Source: Flavobacterium wongokense (GTDB lineage: Bacteria; Bacteroidota; Bacteroidia; Flavobacteriales; Flavobacteriaceae). From it: DNA of 64,000 nt. Position 1 is the stretch's first letter. Every line of letters starts with the position of its first letter. A program made the position numbers and the translations under genes. The stretch is from NCBI RefSeq assembly GCF_021608265.1, contig NZ_JAKIHP010000001.1, positions 1 through 64,000 on the forward strand, written 5' to 3'. The notes under the pieces were generated by a model. The model was not told where the DNA came from. It did not search any database and was given only the letters and a program-made list of their open reading frames with translations. Below, piece after piece: positions 10,036 through 17,311 of this stretch.

Positions 10036-11154
10036 ATGAAATTTATAGTATCGAGTTCATACTTACTAAAACAATTACAAGTACTGGGAAGTGTTATTAA
10101 TAGCAGCAACACTTTACCCATTTTAGATAACTTCCTATTTGAGTTAGACCACAAAAATTTAAGTGTTTCAGCTTCCGATTTAGAGACAACCATGTCGGCT
10201 ACTTTAGAAATTGACTCAACCAGTAAAGGAAGCGTTGCAGTTCCTGCAAAATTGCTATTGGACATCCTGAAAACATTTCCAGAGCAGCCTTTGACCTTTA
10301 CTGTTGAAGAAAACAGCACAATTGAAATCAGCTCAAACTCAGGTAAATATGCGATTGCTTATGCTCCGGGAGAAGAATTCCCAAAATCGGTAAACCTTGA
10401 TAACCCATCATCAACTGTAGTTCCGTCAGAAGTATTGGCGACAGCAATCAGCAAAACCATCTTTGCTGCCGGAAACGACGATTTGCGTCCGGTAATGAGT
10501 GGTGTGTTTTTCCAGTTTTCTCCGGAAGGTTTGATTTTCGTAGCAACCGATGCACACAAATTAGTGAAATATGCACGTGCCGATGTAAAAGCGTCTCAGG
10601 TTGCGGATTTTATCATGCCAAAGAAACCTTTGAATATTTTGAAAAGCATTTTAGGAACTTCTGATTCGGATGTGACTATTGAATACAATGATTCAAATGC
10701 AACCTTCTCTTTTGACAGTTATATTTTGACCTGTCGTTTAATCGACGGAAAATATCCAAATTATGAAGCGGTTATTCCAAAGGAAAATCCAAATAAGTTA
10801 ATGATCAACAGAGTATTGTTATTGAATTCGGTTCGTCGTGTTGCGATTTTCTCTAACAAAACCACGCACCAGATTCGTTTGAAAATTGCCGGTGCCGAAT
10901 TGAATATTTCTGCAGAAGATATTGATTACTCAAACAAAGCTGAAGAAAGATTGACCTGTGATTACCAAGGTGATGACATGCAGATCGGATTTAACTCGCG
11001 TTTCCTTTCTGAAATGTTGACCAACCTGACTTCTGATGAGATTATGTTGGAAATGTCGATGCCAAACCGCGCCGGAATCTTAACACCAATTGATGGCCTT
11101 GATGAAGGCGAAACCGTTACCATGCTTGTAATGCCGGTAATGCTGAACAATTAA
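10036..11154 (+). CDS. dnaN: DNA polymerase III beta subunit (sliding clamp)
   Basis: 372 residues, matching the length of bacterial beta clamps, which form a ring dimer of three-domain subunits and tether polymerase to DNA. The N-terminal MKFIVSSSYLLKQLQVLGSV, the ASDLETTM stretch, the second-domain RPVMSGVFFQ motif, the DIDYSNKAEE region and the typical C-terminal VMPVMLNN are visible. dnaN is not beside dnaA here, as is common in Bacteroidota. It has its own promoter and terminator. Confidence 0.98.
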   Translation: MKFIVSSSYLLKQLQVLGSVINSSNTLPILDNFLFELDHKNLSVSASDLETTMSATLEIDSTSKGSVAVPAKLLLDILKTFPEQPLTFTVEENSTIEISSNSGKYAIAYAPGEEFPKSVNLDNPSSTVVPSEVLATAISKTIFAAGNDDLRPVMSGVFFQFSPEGLIFVATDAHKLVKYARADVKASQVADFIMPKKPLNILKSILGTSDSDVTIEYNDSNATFSFDSYILTCRLIDGKYPNYEAVIPKENPNKLMINRVLLLNSVRRVAIFSNKTTHQIRLKIAGAELNISAEDIDYSNKAEERLTCDYQGDDMQIGFNSRFLSEMLTNLTSDEIMLEMSMPNRAGILTPIDGLDEGETVTMLVMPVMLNN

Positions 11155-11306: not shown

Positions 11307-11657
11307 TTGGGAATGATTTTAAGAGAAAGCATGAAGAATAAATATTCTTTTGCCGTTGGCATTTCAACTTTTATACTTGCATCGTTAATTATAGTGCATT
11401 GGGCTTTCATTTGTTCTTTTGATGAATTCTTCCATTTGTACAAACGCGGGTTCAGTCCACAGACCATAAAAGCTTTGCCTCTTTTTTTAAAACCATTATA
11501 TAAAGGCGTTCCCAATTTAATAACACTGATTAGTTATGTGCTATTTACCTTTTCGGCTTTCTTTCTTGTAGGGCAAAAAAGGAAAACTTATTTTTATATG
11601 GGAATCAGTTCTTTTTTAATGATTGCGTACCTATTTTTATTTTTAGTTAATGCATAA
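11307..11657 (+). CDS. Small membrane protein, unknown function
   Basis: 116 residues with three hydrophobic segments (about 14-35, 66-88 and 95-114) separated by a basic loop. I recognise no domain. The start is uncertain: an alternative ATG at 11331 (MKNKYSF) would remove eight residues and is preceded by a purine-rich tract. Codon use resembles the neighbours. An open frame exists on the opposite strand, but its product is an unremarkable basic polypeptide, so I prefer the plus-strand frame. Orphan gene between dnaN and the LipL32 homologue. Confidence 0.55.
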   Translation: MGMILRESMKNKYSFAVGISTFILASLIIVHWAFICSFDEFFHLYKRGFSPQTIKALPLFLKPLYKGVPNLITLISYVLFTFSAFFLVGQKRKTYFYMGISSFLMIAYLFLFLVNA

Positions 11658-11722: not shown

Positions 11723-11730
11723 TATATTTG
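11723..11730 (+). promoter_or_regulatory. -7 element upstream of the LipL32-like gene
   Basis: TATATTTG matches TAnnTTTG exactly and lies 31 nt before the start codon at 11762. A TTG at 11706-11708 is only 14 nt away, so the -33 element is unclear. Confidence 0.5.
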
Positions 11731-11761: not shown

Positions 11762-12451
11762 ATGAAAAAAAATGTACTTGCAGGCTTAGTATGTCTTGCT
11801 ATCGGAATGAGTGCTTCTGCACAGAAATTAGGAAGTTTTGGCGCTGATTTGGCAAAAAAATCAGTAATGGGAAAAGAAATCAGGGTTCCTTATACAGATA
11901 TGATAAGCTACTACGGTTTTATCAAGCCAGGTTCTAAACCAGACGAAGTTAAAGGCGGAAAAAAAATGTATTACATCTATGTTTGGGTTCCTGTTGCAGC
12001 TCCTGAAATTGGAGTAAGAATGATTTCTCCAGTACCAGACAGCATGAAGCCTTCAGATAAGGATTATGTTTCTGCAGATTATACTGCAAATGCATCAAAC
12101 ACAACAAGTTTCTTCGATACTTGGATAACTTTGGAAAGAGCTGACGGAATTTTTAAAGTGGAAGATGTTGCTGGAAAAGCAAAATCTGCATCTTGGACAA
12201 AAATTGAAGTAAATGATGATTCAAGTGAAATGCCTGCAAATCCAAAAGGGAGCAAGTATAACTCTTTGATGAGAATCACAAGCGAGGTTTCAAACCCAAC
12301 AAAATCTTTGGTTATGGGGTTATACAGAATTGGGTTCACCACTTACAAAACAGGTGAAGTTGAAGGAAGCTTCTTAGCTCAATTGGGTGCTCCGGTTAAA
12401 CTTCCTGGAGTTCAGGTAGCGGTAAATCCGGCTGACATCAAGAAAATGTAA
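11762..12451 (+). CDS. Secreted LipL32-family protein
   Basis: 229 residues that I recognise as a homologue of LipL32, the dominant surface lipoprotein of pathogenic Leptospira. Shared blocks in order include ISYYGFIKPG (48-57), YYIYVWVP (70-77), EIGVRMISP (82-90), FFDTWITLER (117-126), KYNSLMRI (165-172) and LYRIGFTTYKTGEVEGSF (187-204). LipL32 binds calcium and host matrix; the residues equivalent to its calcium ligands are present (Asp119-Thr120, Asp152-Asp153, Tyr166), although the Asp-rich tract is much shorter. Unlike LipL32 there is no lipobox cysteine: residues 1-20 form an ordinary signal peptide cleaved before Gln21, so the protein is periplasmic or secreted rather than lipidated. 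It is a single gene with a terminator. Family call strong from memory of LipL32; role in this organism unknown. Confidence 0.85.
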   Translation: MKKNVLAGLVCLAIGMSASAQKLGSFGADLAKKSVMGKEIRVPYTDMISYYGFIKPGSKPDEVKGGKKMYYIYVWVPVAAPEIGVRMISPVPDSMKPSDKDYVSADYTANASNTTSFFDTWITLERADGIFKVEDVAGKAKSASWTKIEVNDDSSEMPANPKGSKYNSLMRITSEVSNPTKSLVMGLYRIGFTTYKTGEVEGSFLAQLGAPVKLPGVQVAVNPADIKKM

Positions 12452-12470
12452 TTCTTAACATCAATAAAAA

Positions 12471-12505
12471 CAAAAAGCCTCTCGTTTTGAACGAGAGGCT
12501 TTTTG
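12471..12505. terminator. Bidirectional terminator between the LipL32-like and universal-stress genes
   Basis: A perfect 16-bp stem, CAAAAAGCCTCTCGTT (12471-12486) with its complement at 12490-12505, closes a 3-nt loop. A-tract and T-tract flank it, so it can end transcription from both converging genes. The minus-strand stop codon at 12507 abuts it. Confidence 0.92.
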
Positions 12506-12506
12506 T

Positions 12507-13340
12507 TTATTCGTGTATTGCCAAAATCGGAGTTTTGGAATGCAATGCCATTTTCTGTGTAGTCGATGTGGTAAAAAGTCGCGTGAAAAAGTTCTTTTTG
12601 TGCATCACCATTGCTAATAAATCAATGCTTTGGTTGATCATAAAATCCTCAATCGTTGCCTCGATATCATCACTTGGAATTATAAAGAATTCCAGATTAT
12701 CTTCATTTTCAAATACGGATTCCCAATATTGGATTTTTTCTCCCTTGAAATCGGAATCCGGAGTTTTTACATAAAGGCATTTTACTTTCGCATCCAGTTT
12801 TTTGGCCAAGGATAAAATTTCGTTTAATGCATAAATTTCATCTTCTTTGTAACGGGTCCTAAATCCAATGGTTTTGATTTGATGGAATTTGGTATCATGC
12901 GCCACGCTCAAAACCGGAACATCAATATCTGAAATTACGCTGCTGGTATTGGTGCCTATAAAGGAATCAAACCAACCGGAAGCGCCGTTGGTTCCCATTA
13001 CCACAAAATCAATGTTTTCCTGTCGAACCACTTCCTTGATACAGTAAACTAAATCGCCATTCATCATAATATGGTTCAGTTCTATGGAACCTGCATTATG
13101 TTCCGTGGCAATTTCATTCAGCGTGTTCAATTCTTCTTCAAAATGATTGGAGTTGGTAACTTCCAGAGTGTCGTAAATTTCAGCATAATTGACAGGCACA
13201 ACCTGACTGTCTACAATTGGCAGCTCAAAAGTATGGAGCAAAACCAAGTCGGCATTGTACAATTTCGCCATTTCAAGCGCATATACAAAAGCATTTTCAG
13301 AAGTCTCTGAAAAATCTATCGGGACAAGTATCTTTCTCAT
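12507..13340 (-). CDS. Tandem universal stress protein (UspA family)
   Basis: 277 residues from the chosen start at 13340 (MRKILVPIDFSE, the canonical Usp opening); a further in-frame ATG lies at 13364 but would add an atypical N-terminus. Two Usp domains occupy about 1-145 and 150-277. The first keeps the nucleotide-binding pattern (MGTNGASG, then GTNTSSV). The second lacks these glycines, having MHKKNFFTRLF and TTSTTQK instead, so only the first domain is likely to bind ATP. Usp proteins respond to starvation and stress. Transcribed alone, converging on the LipL32-like gene. Confidence 0.9.
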   Translation of the reverse strand: MRKILVPIDFSETSENAFVYALEMAKLYNADLVLLHTFELPIVDSQVVPVNYAEIYDTLEVTNSNHFEEELNTLNEIATEHNAGSIELNHIMMNGDLVYCIKEVVRQENIDFVVMGTNGASGWFDSFIGTNTSSVISDIDVPVLSVAHDTKFHQIKTIGFRTRYKEDEIYALNEILSLAKKLDAKVKCLYVKTPDSDFKGEKIQYWESVFENEDNLEFFIIPSDDIEATIEDFMINQSIDLLAMVMHKKNFFTRLFTTSTTQKMALHSKTPILAIHE

Positions 13341-13477
13341 GGCAGTTGATTTTAAATTCAGCATAAAATTACAACCCGTTCATACAAATAAAACATTAAT
13401 TATAAGCACGTTAACATTTTAGTTTTTATATATAATTTATGCTGAAAATCATATAAACATCGCGTCTTAAGTTTTAT

Positions 13478-13504: not shown

Positions 13505-14893
13505 ATGATTTCACAAGAAACTATTGTTGCCTTAGCCTCGCCTTCAGGCGCTGGCGCCATTGCTGTCATCAGGCTTTCAGGTAAAGACGCATTGACCATT
13601 GCAGAGCAGGTTTTCCAATCGGTTTCAGGAAAAAGCATTTCCAAACAAAAAACGCATACCATTCATCTTGGTCATATTGTAGATAATGGAAAAATCTATG
13701 ACCAGGTATTGGTTTCGATATTTAAAAATCCGAATTCCTATACCGGTGAAGATGTGGTCGAGATTTCCTGTCATGGTTCGACTTATATCCAGCAACAAAT
13801 CATTCAATTATTATTGCGAAAAGGCTGCCGAATGGCACAAGCCGGTGAATTTACCTTGCGCGCTTTTTTAAACGGCAAACTCGATTTATCACAAGCCGAA
13901 GCAGTTGCCGATTTGATTTCATCAGACAACGAAGCCAGCCATCAGATTGCGATGCAGCAAATGCGTGGCGGTTTCTCGAACGAAATTGCCAAGTTAAGGG
14001 AAGAACTGTTGAATTTTGCTTCGCTTATCGAACTTGAATTGGATTTTGCCGAGGAAGATGTAGAATTCGCAGACCGAACCCAGTTCAGCGATTTATTGAA
14101 CCGAATCGAGTTTGTCCTAAAACGACTGATTGATTCCTTTGCAGTTGGAAATGTCATTAAAAATGGAATTCCTGTAGCCATTGTGGGTGAACCCAATGTT
14201 GGAAAATCAACTTTACTGAATGCTTTGCTAAACGAAGAAAGAGCTATTGTTTCGGATATTGCCGGAACAACGCGTGATACCATTGAGGACGAATTGGTCA
14301 TTGAAGGCATTGGTTTCCGCTTTATTGATACAGCCGGAATCCGTGAAACAAAAGATGTAGTTGAAAGCATTGGTATCAAAAAAACATTTGAAAAGATTGA
14401 ACAGGCGCAGGTAATCGTCTATTTATTAGATAGTTTAGAATATCAGGTTTCAAGTTCCAAATTCCAGGTTGAGCTGGAAAAAATCAAAAACCAGTTTCCA
14501 TTAAAACCTTTAATTATCATTGGAAACAAGGTTGACAGGCTTTCTGCCGAAGAAGTTTCAAATTTAAAGTCGCAAATCGAGAATATTTTACTACTTTCGG
14601 CGAAGGAAAAACAAGGAATTGAGAATTTAAAAGCCCAACTACTTTCTTTCGTTAATACCGGTGCTTTGCGCAACAACGAAACTATAGTAACCAACACCCG
14701 TCATTACGATTCGCTTTTGAAGGCATTGGAGGAAATCCAGAAAGTGAAATTTGGAATGCAGAGCAATTTGTCTTCCGATTTGATGGCAATTGACATTAAG
14801 CAGGCATTGTATTACTTTGGCGAAATAACAGGCGAAGTTACCAATGATGAACTTTTAGGAAATATTTTCGCGAATTTCTGCATCGGAAAATAA
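13505..14893 (+). CDS. mnmE: tRNA uridine-5-carboxymethylaminomethyl(34) synthesis GTPase MnmE
   Basis: 462 residues, full length. With MnmG, this GTPase modifies the wobble uridine of several tRNAs. The N-terminal folate-binding domain (about 1-120), a helical domain and an inserted G domain are present. G-domain motifs: GEPNVGKST (G1), GTTRDT (G2), DTAGIRETKD (G3) and GNKVD (G4). The protein ends with the obligatory C-terminal motif FCIGK, containing the catalytic cysteine. Standard core gene. Confidence 0.97.
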   Translation: MISQETIVALASPSGAGAIAVIRLSGKDALTIAEQVFQSVSGKSISKQKTHTIHLGHIVDNGKIYDQVLVSIFKNPNSYTGEDVVEISCHGSTYIQQQIIQLLLRKGCRMAQAGEFTLRAFLNGKLDLSQAEAVADLISSDNEASHQIAMQQMRGGFSNEIAKLREELLNFASLIELELDFAEEDVEFADRTQFSDLLNRIEFVLKRLIDSFAVGNVIKNGIPVAIVGEPNVGKSTLLNALLNEERAIVSDIAGTTRDTIEDELVIEGIGFRFIDTAGIRETKDVVESIGIKKTFEKIEQAQVIVYLLDSLEYQVSSSKFQVELEKIKNQFPLKPLIIIGNKVDRLSAEEVSNLKSQIENILLLSAKEKQGIENLKAQLLSFVNTGALRNNETIVTNTRHYDSLLKALEEIQKVKFGMQSNLSSDLMAIDIKQALYYFGEITGEVTNDELLGNIFANFCIGK

Positions 14894-14966: not shown

Positions 14967-16934
14967 ATGAGTTTCAAGAGAAATTGGACAAAGCTCTCAA
15001 AATGGTTTTTGACAAGGCCCAACACTTCCGGAACTTTGGTTTTCCTTTTGTTGCTTTTGTTTGTGTTCTTTTTAGTGAAATTCAGGTATAATGTTGCCAA
15101 AGAAAATCAGCATCGTGAAATGTCGAACATCATTAATGTTGTTCAGCAAAACTTTGAACAAGTCCTAAAGAATAGTTATGTAACAACATTAACGCTTGCC
15201 ATGACGGTCAATGACGAAGGCAAGCCTGAGAATTTTGACAGGATTGCGGCCCAACTTGTAAATTCAAATCCTTCCATTGATGCGGTGCAGCTTGTCCCAA
15301 ATGGTGTGATTCAATATGTTTATCCGTTTGAAGCAAACGAAGCGGCGATTGGTTATGACATCCTGAACAGTCCGAAAGTAAAACAGGAAGCGCTGAAATC
15401 GATAGAAACCAAACTGATTTATTTTGCCGGGCCTTTGAAATTAAAGCAAGGCGGAATGGGCGTTGTCGGAAGGCTGCCCGTTTTTATGGAAAATAAATTC
15501 TGGGGATTTTCGGCAGTGATCATTCGTCTGGAAACTTTGATAAAAGTCTCCGGTATTGAATCCATTGATGATTCGAAATATTATTTCCAGTTTTCAAAAG
15601 TAAATCCGACTACCAGAAAAGAGGAATTTTTCCTTTCCAATAAAACTGATTTTTCCGATCATTATTTTCAAACCGTTACAATTCCTGACGGTGACTGGAA
15701 ATTGTATTTAATTGCCAGGGAAAAAAATGCACTCATTTATCAGGTCTTCATTTTCTTCTTTTTTGGGTTTTTATTATCGCTGTTGTTTGCGCTTTGGGTA
15801 GTTTCGATTATGAAAAAACCGGCTCAGCTGCAAAAAAAGGTGTTCCAGCAGGCACAAAAAATACACGAAAGTGAAACAGAATTCAAAACCTTGTTTGAAC
15901 AGGCACCTGTTGGGATTGCCAAAGTTGACAGTGACAATGGTGATTTTATTACAGTTAATAGTGAGTTTTGCAGGATTGTTGGTTATCCTGAAGAAGAGCT
16001 GACCAATTCCAATTTTCAAAAAATTACACATCCTGATGATCTTGAAAATAATATAAACTGCCTTCACAAACTGAAGGACGGAAGCCTGCATGAATTTGCC
16101 ATGGAGAAACGTTACCTGCACAAATCTGGAAGAACGGTTTGGGTAAATGTGATTGTTTCCAAATTATGGAAATCGGATGGAAATGTGAAATGCAATATTG
16201 CCATCGTTGAAGACATTACCGATAAAAAACGCGCTGAAGAAGAACTAAAACAATCCTTTCAATTGGTTTCAGACCAGAATAAAAGGCTCCTGAATTTCTC
16301 GTATATCGTTTCTCACAACTTAAGGTCACACACCAGCAACATCCAGACTATTTCTGATTTTTTGGAATCAGCCGAAACCAAAGAGGAACGTGACGAAATG
16401 ATTGATTTATTGAAAAGGGTTTCGGATTCCCTTAATGAAACGATGTCCAACCTGAATGAAGTGGTTAGCATCCGAACCAATATTAATTTAAGCATTGAGC
16501 ATCTGAACCTCAATGAATATATCGAAAAGGCCAAACTGATTTTAGGACAGCAAATCCTTAAGAAGGAAGCCCTGGTCCAAAATTTGGTTTCCAAAACCAT
16601 CGTCATCGATTATAACGCTGCTTATCTTGAAAGCATCCTTTTCAATATGATTTCGAATGCAATTCGGTATAGCCACAATGACCGAAAACCGGAAATTATC
16701 CTTTCCTTTGATGAAGAAACAAAATCGCTTAAGATTCAGGATAACGGAATTGGAATCGATTTAAAGAAAAATGGGGATAAACTTTTTGGCATGTACAAGA
16801 CGTTCAACAACAATCCTGATTCAAAAGGAATTGGATTGTTCCTTGTAAAAAACCAGGTTGACGCCATGGGTGGAAAAATTAGGGCAGAAAGCAAACTGAA
16901 TGAAGGCACAACATTTACAATCTATTTCAAATGA
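14967..16934 (+). CDS. CHASE-PAS sensor histidine kinase
   Basis: 655 residues. Membrane helices at about 22-38 and 258-280 enclose an extracytoplasmic CHASE sensor domain (about 75-195, with IDAVQLVPNGVIQYVYP and the GPLKLKQGGMG stretch). A coiled linker leads to a PAS domain (about 303-425), then a HisKA-like phosphoacceptor helix with His450 in SYIVSHNLRSH and an HATPase_c domain (Asn564 in SNAIRYS, DNGIGID at 592-598, GIGL at 621-624). The stop overlaps the start of the response-regulator gene by four bases (ATGA), so they form a two-component pair. CHASE ligands are small molecules; this one is unknown. Confidence 0.92.
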   Translation: MSFKRNWTKLSKWFLTRPNTSGTLVFLLLLLFVFFLVKFRYNVAKENQHREMSNIINVVQQNFEQVLKNSYVTTLTLAMTVNDEGKPENFDRIAAQLVNSNPSIDAVQLVPNGVIQYVYPFEANEAAIGYDILNSPKVKQEALKSIETKLIYFAGPLKLKQGGMGVVGRLPVFMENKFWGFSAVIIRLETLIKVSGIESIDDSKYYFQFSKVNPTTRKEEFFLSNKTDFSDHYFQTVTIPDGDWKLYLIAREKNALIYQVFIFFFFGFLLSLLFALWVVSIMKKPAQLQKKVFQQAQKIHESETEFKTLFEQAPVGIAKVDSDNGDFITVNSEFCRIVGYPEEELTNSNFQKITHPDDLENNINCLHKLKDGSLHEFAMEKRYLHKSGRTVWVNVIVSKLWKSDGNVKCNIAIVEDITDKKRAEEELKQSFQLVSDQNKRLLNFSYIVSHNLRSHTSNIQTISDFLESAETKEERDEMIDLLKRVSDSLNETMSNLNEVVSIRTNINLSIEHLNLNEYIEKAKLILGQQILKKEALVQNLVSKTIVIDYNAAYLESILFNMISNAIRYSHNDRKPEIILSFDEETKSLKIQDNGIGIDLKKNGDKLFGMYKTFNNNPDSKGIGLFLVKNQVDAMGGKIRAESKLNEGTTFTIYFK

Positions 16935-17311
16935 GTAAAGTGATATGCATCATAGACGACGATCCTATTTATCAGTTCCTGATTAATAAGATTATTGATA
17001 ATTCCAAAGGCAATCATGAGGTTATGTTCTTTAAAAATGGAAAGGAGGCCTTGGATTATTTTACATTGGATATTGCTAAAAATCTGCCCGACATCATCCT
17101 TCTCGATTTGGAAATGCCTGTGATGGATGGATGGGATTTTTTGAAGGAAATAGACAAACTCCACATCGACGATACCGCAATTTACATAGTAAGCTCTTCC
17201 ATTTCAGACGAAGATAAAAGGCGTGCTAAAAAATTCCCGAAAATAAAAGGGCACTTTTCAAAACCAATCAATTCCAATAAAATACAGGAAATCACCAAAA
17301 AAATCGAATAA
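16931..17311 (+). CDS. Single-domain response regulator
   Basis: 126 residues comprising only a receiver domain. The acidic pocket (Asp9-Asp11), phosphoacceptor Asp59 in LLDLEMPVMDGW, a Ser at 88-90 and Lys111 in FSKPI are all present. There is no output domain, so it probably relays by protein contact or passes phosphate onward, like the small receivers that follow many flavobacterial PAS kinases. It overlaps the kinase gene by four bases. It converges on the endonuclease gene with a 7-nt gap and no evident terminator. Confidence 0.93.
   Translation: MSKVICIIDDDPIYQFLINKIIDNSKGNHEVMFFKNGKEALDYFTLDIAKNLPDIILLDLEMPVMDGWDFLKEIDKLHIDDTAIYIVSSSISDEDKRRAKKFPKIKGHFSKPINSNKIQEITKKIE

Follow-up and report, generated by a model that had tools for sequence, protein, structure and literature searches.

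In pathogenic Leptospira, LipL32 is reported to be the most abundant protein, and what it primarily does is considered largely unknown (PMC3544172). The protein is lipidated at Cys20, and its calcium cluster is formed by D132, T133, D164, D165 and Y178 (PMC8951592). LipL32 has been found mostly subsurface, its surface exposure is disputed, and a LipL32 transposon mutant was reported to be equally adherent to matrix (PMC3544172).

Orthologs outside Leptospira were listed in 2014 by Gardiner and colleagues, whose table includes two Cellulophaga species, a Formosa and an Ulvibacter; the distribution was termed patchy and horizontal transfer was proposed (PMC4080168). Transfer is repeated as likely for Pseudoalteromonas tunicata (PMC5240218). 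Deletion of ptlL32 in P. tunicata reduced extracellular matrix binding tenfold and lowered alga binding, and complementation restored the matrix phenotype (PMC4080168). The presence of LipL32 in the Bacteroidota lineage is already known and no surprise. The original prediction, which named relatives in few genera beyond Leptospira, Pseudoalteromonas among them, is outdated on this point, given the 2014 table and the number of carriers within Flavobacterium itself (see below). A search of titles and opening abstracts returned no literature on LipL32 in Flavobacterium or on the missing lipid, and passages of PMC3493377 are likewise silent.

The window analyzed here, a stretch of 64,000 nucleotides from Flavobacterium wongokense, carries a gene of this family, lipL32, between dnaN and mnmE (Table 1).

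Table 1. Features of the lipL32 locus, in window positions.
Feature	Position	Strand	Basis
dnaN, upstream neighbor, marker of the common locus	10036..11154	+	Pfam; gene order
Small hydrophobic, probably membrane, protein upstream of lipL32; sometimes present	11307..11657	+	ORF; no Pfam or NCBIfam match
lipL32, LipL32-family protein gene (229 aa; ATG start, TAA stop)	11762..12451	+	PF12103, PDB, fold match
Leader (residues 1-20) with A-S-A ahead of Gln21; Q-rule, type I signal peptidase type, lipobox absent	11762..11821	+	Read by eye; predicted cleavage
LipL32 domain, residues 38-218	11873..12415	+	PF12103 match
Calcium-ligand equivalents Asp119-Thr120 (LipL32 D132, T133)	12116..12121	+	Alignment; identical in 44/44
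Calcium-ligand equivalents Asp152-Asp153 (LipL32 D164, D165)	12215..12220	+	Alignment; identical in 44/44
Calcium-ligand equivalent Tyr166 (LipL32 Y178)	12257..12259	+	Alignment; identical in 44/44
Stem-loop terminator-like site between convergent lipL32 and usp	12468..12508	.	19 pairs, minus-strand listing
Universal stress protein (usp), frequent downstream neighbor	12507..13364	-	PF00582, E 5.3e-31; gene order
mnmE, downstream neighbor, marker of the common locus	13505..14893	+	Pfam; gene order

The gene product is confirmed as a member of the LipL32 family by its PF12103 domain, the LipL32 jelly-roll fold and the ligand residues, far beyond chance. This bears out the family assignment of the original prediction, and all the motifs quoted in it are present in the translation. 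The Pfam match (E 3.7e-81, 271.5 bits against a cut-off of 25) covers profile positions 1-178 of 179, and a phmmer search of PDB chain sequences (E up to 1) returned three distinct sequences, all LipL32 (E 8.6e-39 to 1.2e-38). An AlphaFold2 model of the protein from 21 sequences reached a mean pLDDT of 74.2 and a pTM of 0.69, with the first 40 residues poorly predicted. In a Foldseek search with this model, the top matches were eight LipL32 chains (E 2e-16 to 1.4e-14), followed by the next match at 1.4e-2. Structural alignment with calcium-bound 2wfk gave a Z of 19.1 over 190 residues (rmsd 3.2), and the best unrelated chain gave a Z of 8.9; neither the missing profile match nor the different fold that had been named as possible counter-evidence was seen. 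The description of the genome as flavobacterium-like also stands, with LipL32 identities of up to 90% and a gene order common to named Flavobacterium records. Named carriers of the gene include Flavobacterium paronense CECT 8460 (L023), F. noncentrifugens (L019) and F. terrisoli (L010).

The window protein shares with Leptospira LipL32 (PDB 2zz8, 3frl, 2wfk) the Pfam domain, the fold (Z 16.5-19.1), the five calcium-ligand residues and 47% identity over aligned residues; high expression is predicted for it as well. The equivalence of the ligands had been proposed beforehand and is upheld by the alignment, in which all five residues are invariant in the 44 full-length Bacteroidota sequences, the window's among them; 43 alignment positions are invariant across these 44 and Leptospira. 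By this conservation, the window protein is predicted to bind calcium. It differs from Leptospira LipL32 in having no lipidated cysteine and in its N-D-D-S loop, present in 43 of the 44 sequences, in place of the five-Asp run of LipL32. Its score with NCBIfam NF038394 (equivalog, LipL32 major lipoprotein) is also below the cut-off (152.1 bits against 300). With neither the equivalog score nor the lipid cysteine, it is a protein of the LipL32 family but not a LipL32 lipoprotein. PtlL32, set beside it by description only, is likewise an environmental LipL32 ortholog and is called a lipoprotein (PMC4080168). The Cellulophaga, Formosa and Ulvibacter orthologs, likened by their listing rather than by sequence, belong to the same family and to Bacteroidetes (PMC4080168).

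The lipidation cysteine was correctly described as absent, since the protein has neither a cysteine after the leader nor a lipobox. The leader is instead of type I, with Ala-Ser-Ala directly before Gln21 (pattern and eye), in keeping with the Q-rule. In Bacteroidetes, most type I signal peptidase substrates are reported to expose a Gln that is converted to pyroglutamate (PMC5837995, PMC10653852). By pattern and eye, a hydrophobic leader directly precedes Gln-Lys-Leu/Met in 44 of 44 full-length homologues, which are drawn from the window's genus, from further genera in the same family and from two genomes belonging to other orders. None of these 44 Bacteroidota sequences has a cysteine in its mature part or a lipobox within the first 45 residues of the open frame, the scope of the lipobox pattern. 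Because this holds for all 44, the missing cysteine is a lineage-wide rule rather than a local loss, and the cysteine-less form is no peculiarity of one genome.

A strict cleavage-site pattern matched 40 of 45 ORFs, the 45th ORF being the weak paralogue L138; the four family members that failed it differ at position -3 and still have Ala before QKL. In L009, L018 and some others, whose frame stays open upstream, the lipobox pattern partly missed the leader, which was read by eye. Leaders were taken from the open frame in L006, whose usual ATG is out of frame with the rest, and in L020/L048, whose start codon is cut by the contig edge. The 44 exclude fragments and decayed copies (L004, L005, L024, L047, L049, L050) as well as L138 (G1360:C34:3933-4319; 25% identity), which has a leader ending in Ala-Gln and occurs in a genome that also holds a true homologue.

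The gene order is widely shared among carriers of the genus. In 20 of the 25 carrier genomes, dnaN and lipL32 share a strand and are no more than 1.5 kb apart; for 16 of those 20, mnmE was detected on this strand too, up to 4.5 kb away. One more carrier has dnaN 87 bases away on the opposite strand, and another has mnmE 147 bases away. Half of the 30 non-carriers (15/30), picked mainly for few contigs and with dnaN-mnmE distances taken by hand, have the two marker genes on the same strand no more than 8 kb apart, two of them with gaps below 0.5 kb. Second lipL32 copies away from the dnaN locus occur in two Flavobacterium-type metagenome genomes (L016 and L021; L014 and L020).

The small hydrophobic protein encoded upstream of lipL32 has no Pfam or NCBIfam match and was found in 9 of 75 loci searched, several of them copies of one genome. 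These loci include the window, L015, L017, L021, L023, L028, L032 and L044, and the L021 copy, a second lipL32 off the dnaN locus, has it upstream as well. The small protein may travel with lipL32.

At the other end of the gene, a T run also follows the terminator-like stem on the plus strand; the terminator scan alone is not significant, because one site was found against 1.1 expected in shuffles. Upstream, the octamer TATATTTG at 11723..11730 (+) is a weak candidate for the -7 box of a Bacteroidetes-type promoter. It recurs 37-40 bases before the start in L006, L007, L008, L010 and L012 and is missing or at different distances in most remaining loci. The full pattern of such promoters is TTG-N(15-24)-TAnnTTTG; it occurs in 3 of 45 upstream regions and is absent in the window, and no promoter of this type is claimed for lipL32.

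Away from the dnaN locus, where only some neighbors were scanned, at least 4 of 12 contexts (L021; the L025 group; L126; L139) have histidine kinases, mostly with a response regulator, no more than three ORFs from lipL32. They are of the TPR or propeller type and lie in unrelated contexts (L025, L123, L125, L131; L126; L139; L021). The window's own genome has 47 HATPase_c hits in 3.3 Mb, and a hand estimate from kinase density gives about 0.1 per context. A sensor kinase as regulatory partner is borderline and post hoc by this estimate and is not claimed. The window itself encodes a sensor kinase downstream of mnmE (14967-17311; HATPase_c hit 16623-16934, PAS region by eye) that overlaps a small response regulator, also by eye; among the gene-order loci compared, it is matched only in L010 (68%) and L023 (25%).

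The codon usage of lipL32 is strongly biased and resembles that of ribosomal genes. Its codon adaptation index (CAI) of 0.704 ranks second among 56 window ORFs (median 0.489); for the ribosomal operon region, the median over 27 genes is 0.729. In other loci, lipL32 is first by plain CAI in 16 of 30 and among the top two in 24 of 30. A test that controlled for amino-acid make-up and local codon use, covering the window and 30 loci with longer flanks, placed lipL32 first in 21 of 31 loci (2.0 expected by chance) and first or second in 24 of them, although bias is weak in some, such as L128 (rank 6/14), L018 (5/19) and L010 (4/17). This suggests that the LipL32-family protein is abundant, codon bias being only a proxy. 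It counts as support for abundance rather than proof, because the codon weights for every locus came from the window's own genome and the 31 loci are themselves related, a few stemming from one genome.

The distribution of lipL32 is sparse at every level sampled, with the own genome counted throughout. The gene was found by Pfam search in 4 of 100 relatives. The genus sample has 25 carriers among 398 genomes, the family sample 10 among 249 (9 of 235 genera) and the class sample 3 among 295 (3 of 155 genera), two of these three being of other orders. In the order sample (1/296; 90 genera) and the phylum sample (1/296; 139 genera), only the own genome carries it, and a Pfam search of 14 well-known control genomes returned no PF12103 match. 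A tblastn search of 72,556 plasmid and 50,697 phage records, looking for carriage on mobile elements, gave no match.

Within the genus, a dnaN+mnmE tree of 15 carriers and 30 non-carriers requires five changes of carriage, compared with a shuffle mean of 12.8, and its well-supported branches force at least three. The carriers are the 15 of 22 loci examined that have both marker genes; the locus with a frameshifted lipL32 (L024) was included here and kept out of the lipL32 gene trees. One genome (G179) has a decayed lipL32 with stops, and the frameshifted copy, in another (G048), may be an assembly error. Since carriers mostly keep lipL32 at the dnaN locus and it is elsewhere absent or broken, we read it as probably an old gene of the genus that underwent repeated loss; repeated gain at the same place is conceivable.

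The gene trees agree only in part. Among 14 carriers, the lipL32 and dnaN+mnmE trees have 1 of 11 splits in common, and their distances correlate with an r of 0.57 that none of 5000 permutations reached. LipL32 of L009, L011 and L013 is placed among the window's relatives, in conflict with the dnaN+mnmE tree (AU p 0.0036 and 0.021, for groups defined from the latter tree and tested after the lipL32 tree had been inspected). This discordance counts against simple vertical descent. Third-position identity between L008 and L009 is 54% for lipL32, 54% for dnaN and 47% for mnmE. Because the lipL32 value equals that of dnaN, with no excess of silent-site identity, a recent transfer inside the genus is ruled out for this pair. 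For the displaced L009, L011 and L013, noise, selection or old exchange remain as explanations.

At greater depth, the 44 sequences fall into two types across a long branch (length 0.81, support 100/95). The window type brings together the genus, a further genus from the family (L057) and the two genomes of other orders (L136, L137), and the second type comprises 11 sequences of other Flavobacteriaceae, including Olleya and Winogradskyella. LipL32 identity to the window's copy is 62% for L136, 66% for L137 and on average 56% for the second type; DnaN identities to the window's DnaN are 55 and 60% for the L136/L137 genomes and 73-83% for eight second-type genomes. A single clade for the family is weakly rejected (AU p 0.025, tested after the tree was inspected), in a tree whose one outgroup, Leptospira, sits on a very long branch. 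An old duplication and an exchange between orders would both fit this pattern, and an older exchange of lipL32 between orders is thus possible.

Taken together, these features describe a candidate abundant, soluble, calcium-stabilized periplasmic protein of the LipL32 family, a reading to which we give an even chance. The non-lipidated protein would be exported by the Sec system, and type I signal peptidase would cut the leader before Gln21, which is then probably cyclized to pyroglutamate. The mature jelly-roll, presumably calcium-stabilized and made in large amounts, would be soluble and most likely remain periplasmic, possibly against the inner face of the outer membrane, because no lipid, second domain or outer-membrane export signal was found; Pfam and NCBIfam gave no other domain and no type IX signal in the window protein. 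There it may bind a ligand such as a peptide, a polysaccharide or an envelope component. The mostly subsurface position of LipL32 in Leptospira (PMC3544172) speaks for this reading. The main rival is a surface or released adhesin that binds matrix, algal or plant polymers as PtlL32 does, and it is a serious, if doubtful, possibility. The phenotype of the ptlL32 deletion (PMC4080168) favors a surface role for PtlL32 and counts against the periplasmic reading. A remote resemblance of the fold (Z about 6 to 7) to the collagen-binding domains of clostridial collagenases may reflect a common arrangement only. However, an adhesin would have to act with no lipid anchor, type IX signal or further domain found, and surface exposure is disputed even for LipL32 itself (PMC3544172). 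Export of the window protein would still be compatible with the absence of an export signal from the two libraries. The surface and secreted forms named in the original prediction are possibilities only.

Two further explanations question the role or the origin of the gene. A recent horizontal gain, with Leptospira or some other distant bacterium as donor and the cysteine lost upon entry, would account for the patchy distribution in genus and family, for the window type lying closer to the two genomes of other orders than to its own family's second type, and for the partial agreement of the trees; transfer has also been called likely for P. tunicata (PMC5240218). Yet dnaN is adjacent in 20 of 25 carriers, silent-site identity of lipL32 in L008/L009 matches that of dnaN, the cysteine is missing from all 44 Bacteroidota copies, and the gene has the same GC content as the window (0.386 for both). 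Such a gain is disfavored for the genus and highly improbable. That lipL32 is a dispensable relic with no present role is scarcely credible: most sampled genomes of the genus do lack it, and one copy is decayed and one frameshifted, but the ligand residues are invariant and the codon bias is strong in most carriers.

In a broader proposal, offered tentatively and rather unlikely to hold as a whole, the core function of the LipL32 family would be that of an abundant, calcium-stabilized ligand-binding protein of the periplasm, and Bacteroidota would retain the soluble form. If this were true, the lipidated branches would have added the anchor and the adhesion to matrix, and efforts to find a surface virulence role in Leptospira would have been directed at the wrong side of the membrane. 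In named Flavobacterium species, a uniformly non-lipidated and apparently highly expressed branch separates the folded domain from its anchor, and the Flavobacterium LipL32 may thus offer a simple laboratory system for the function of the domain.
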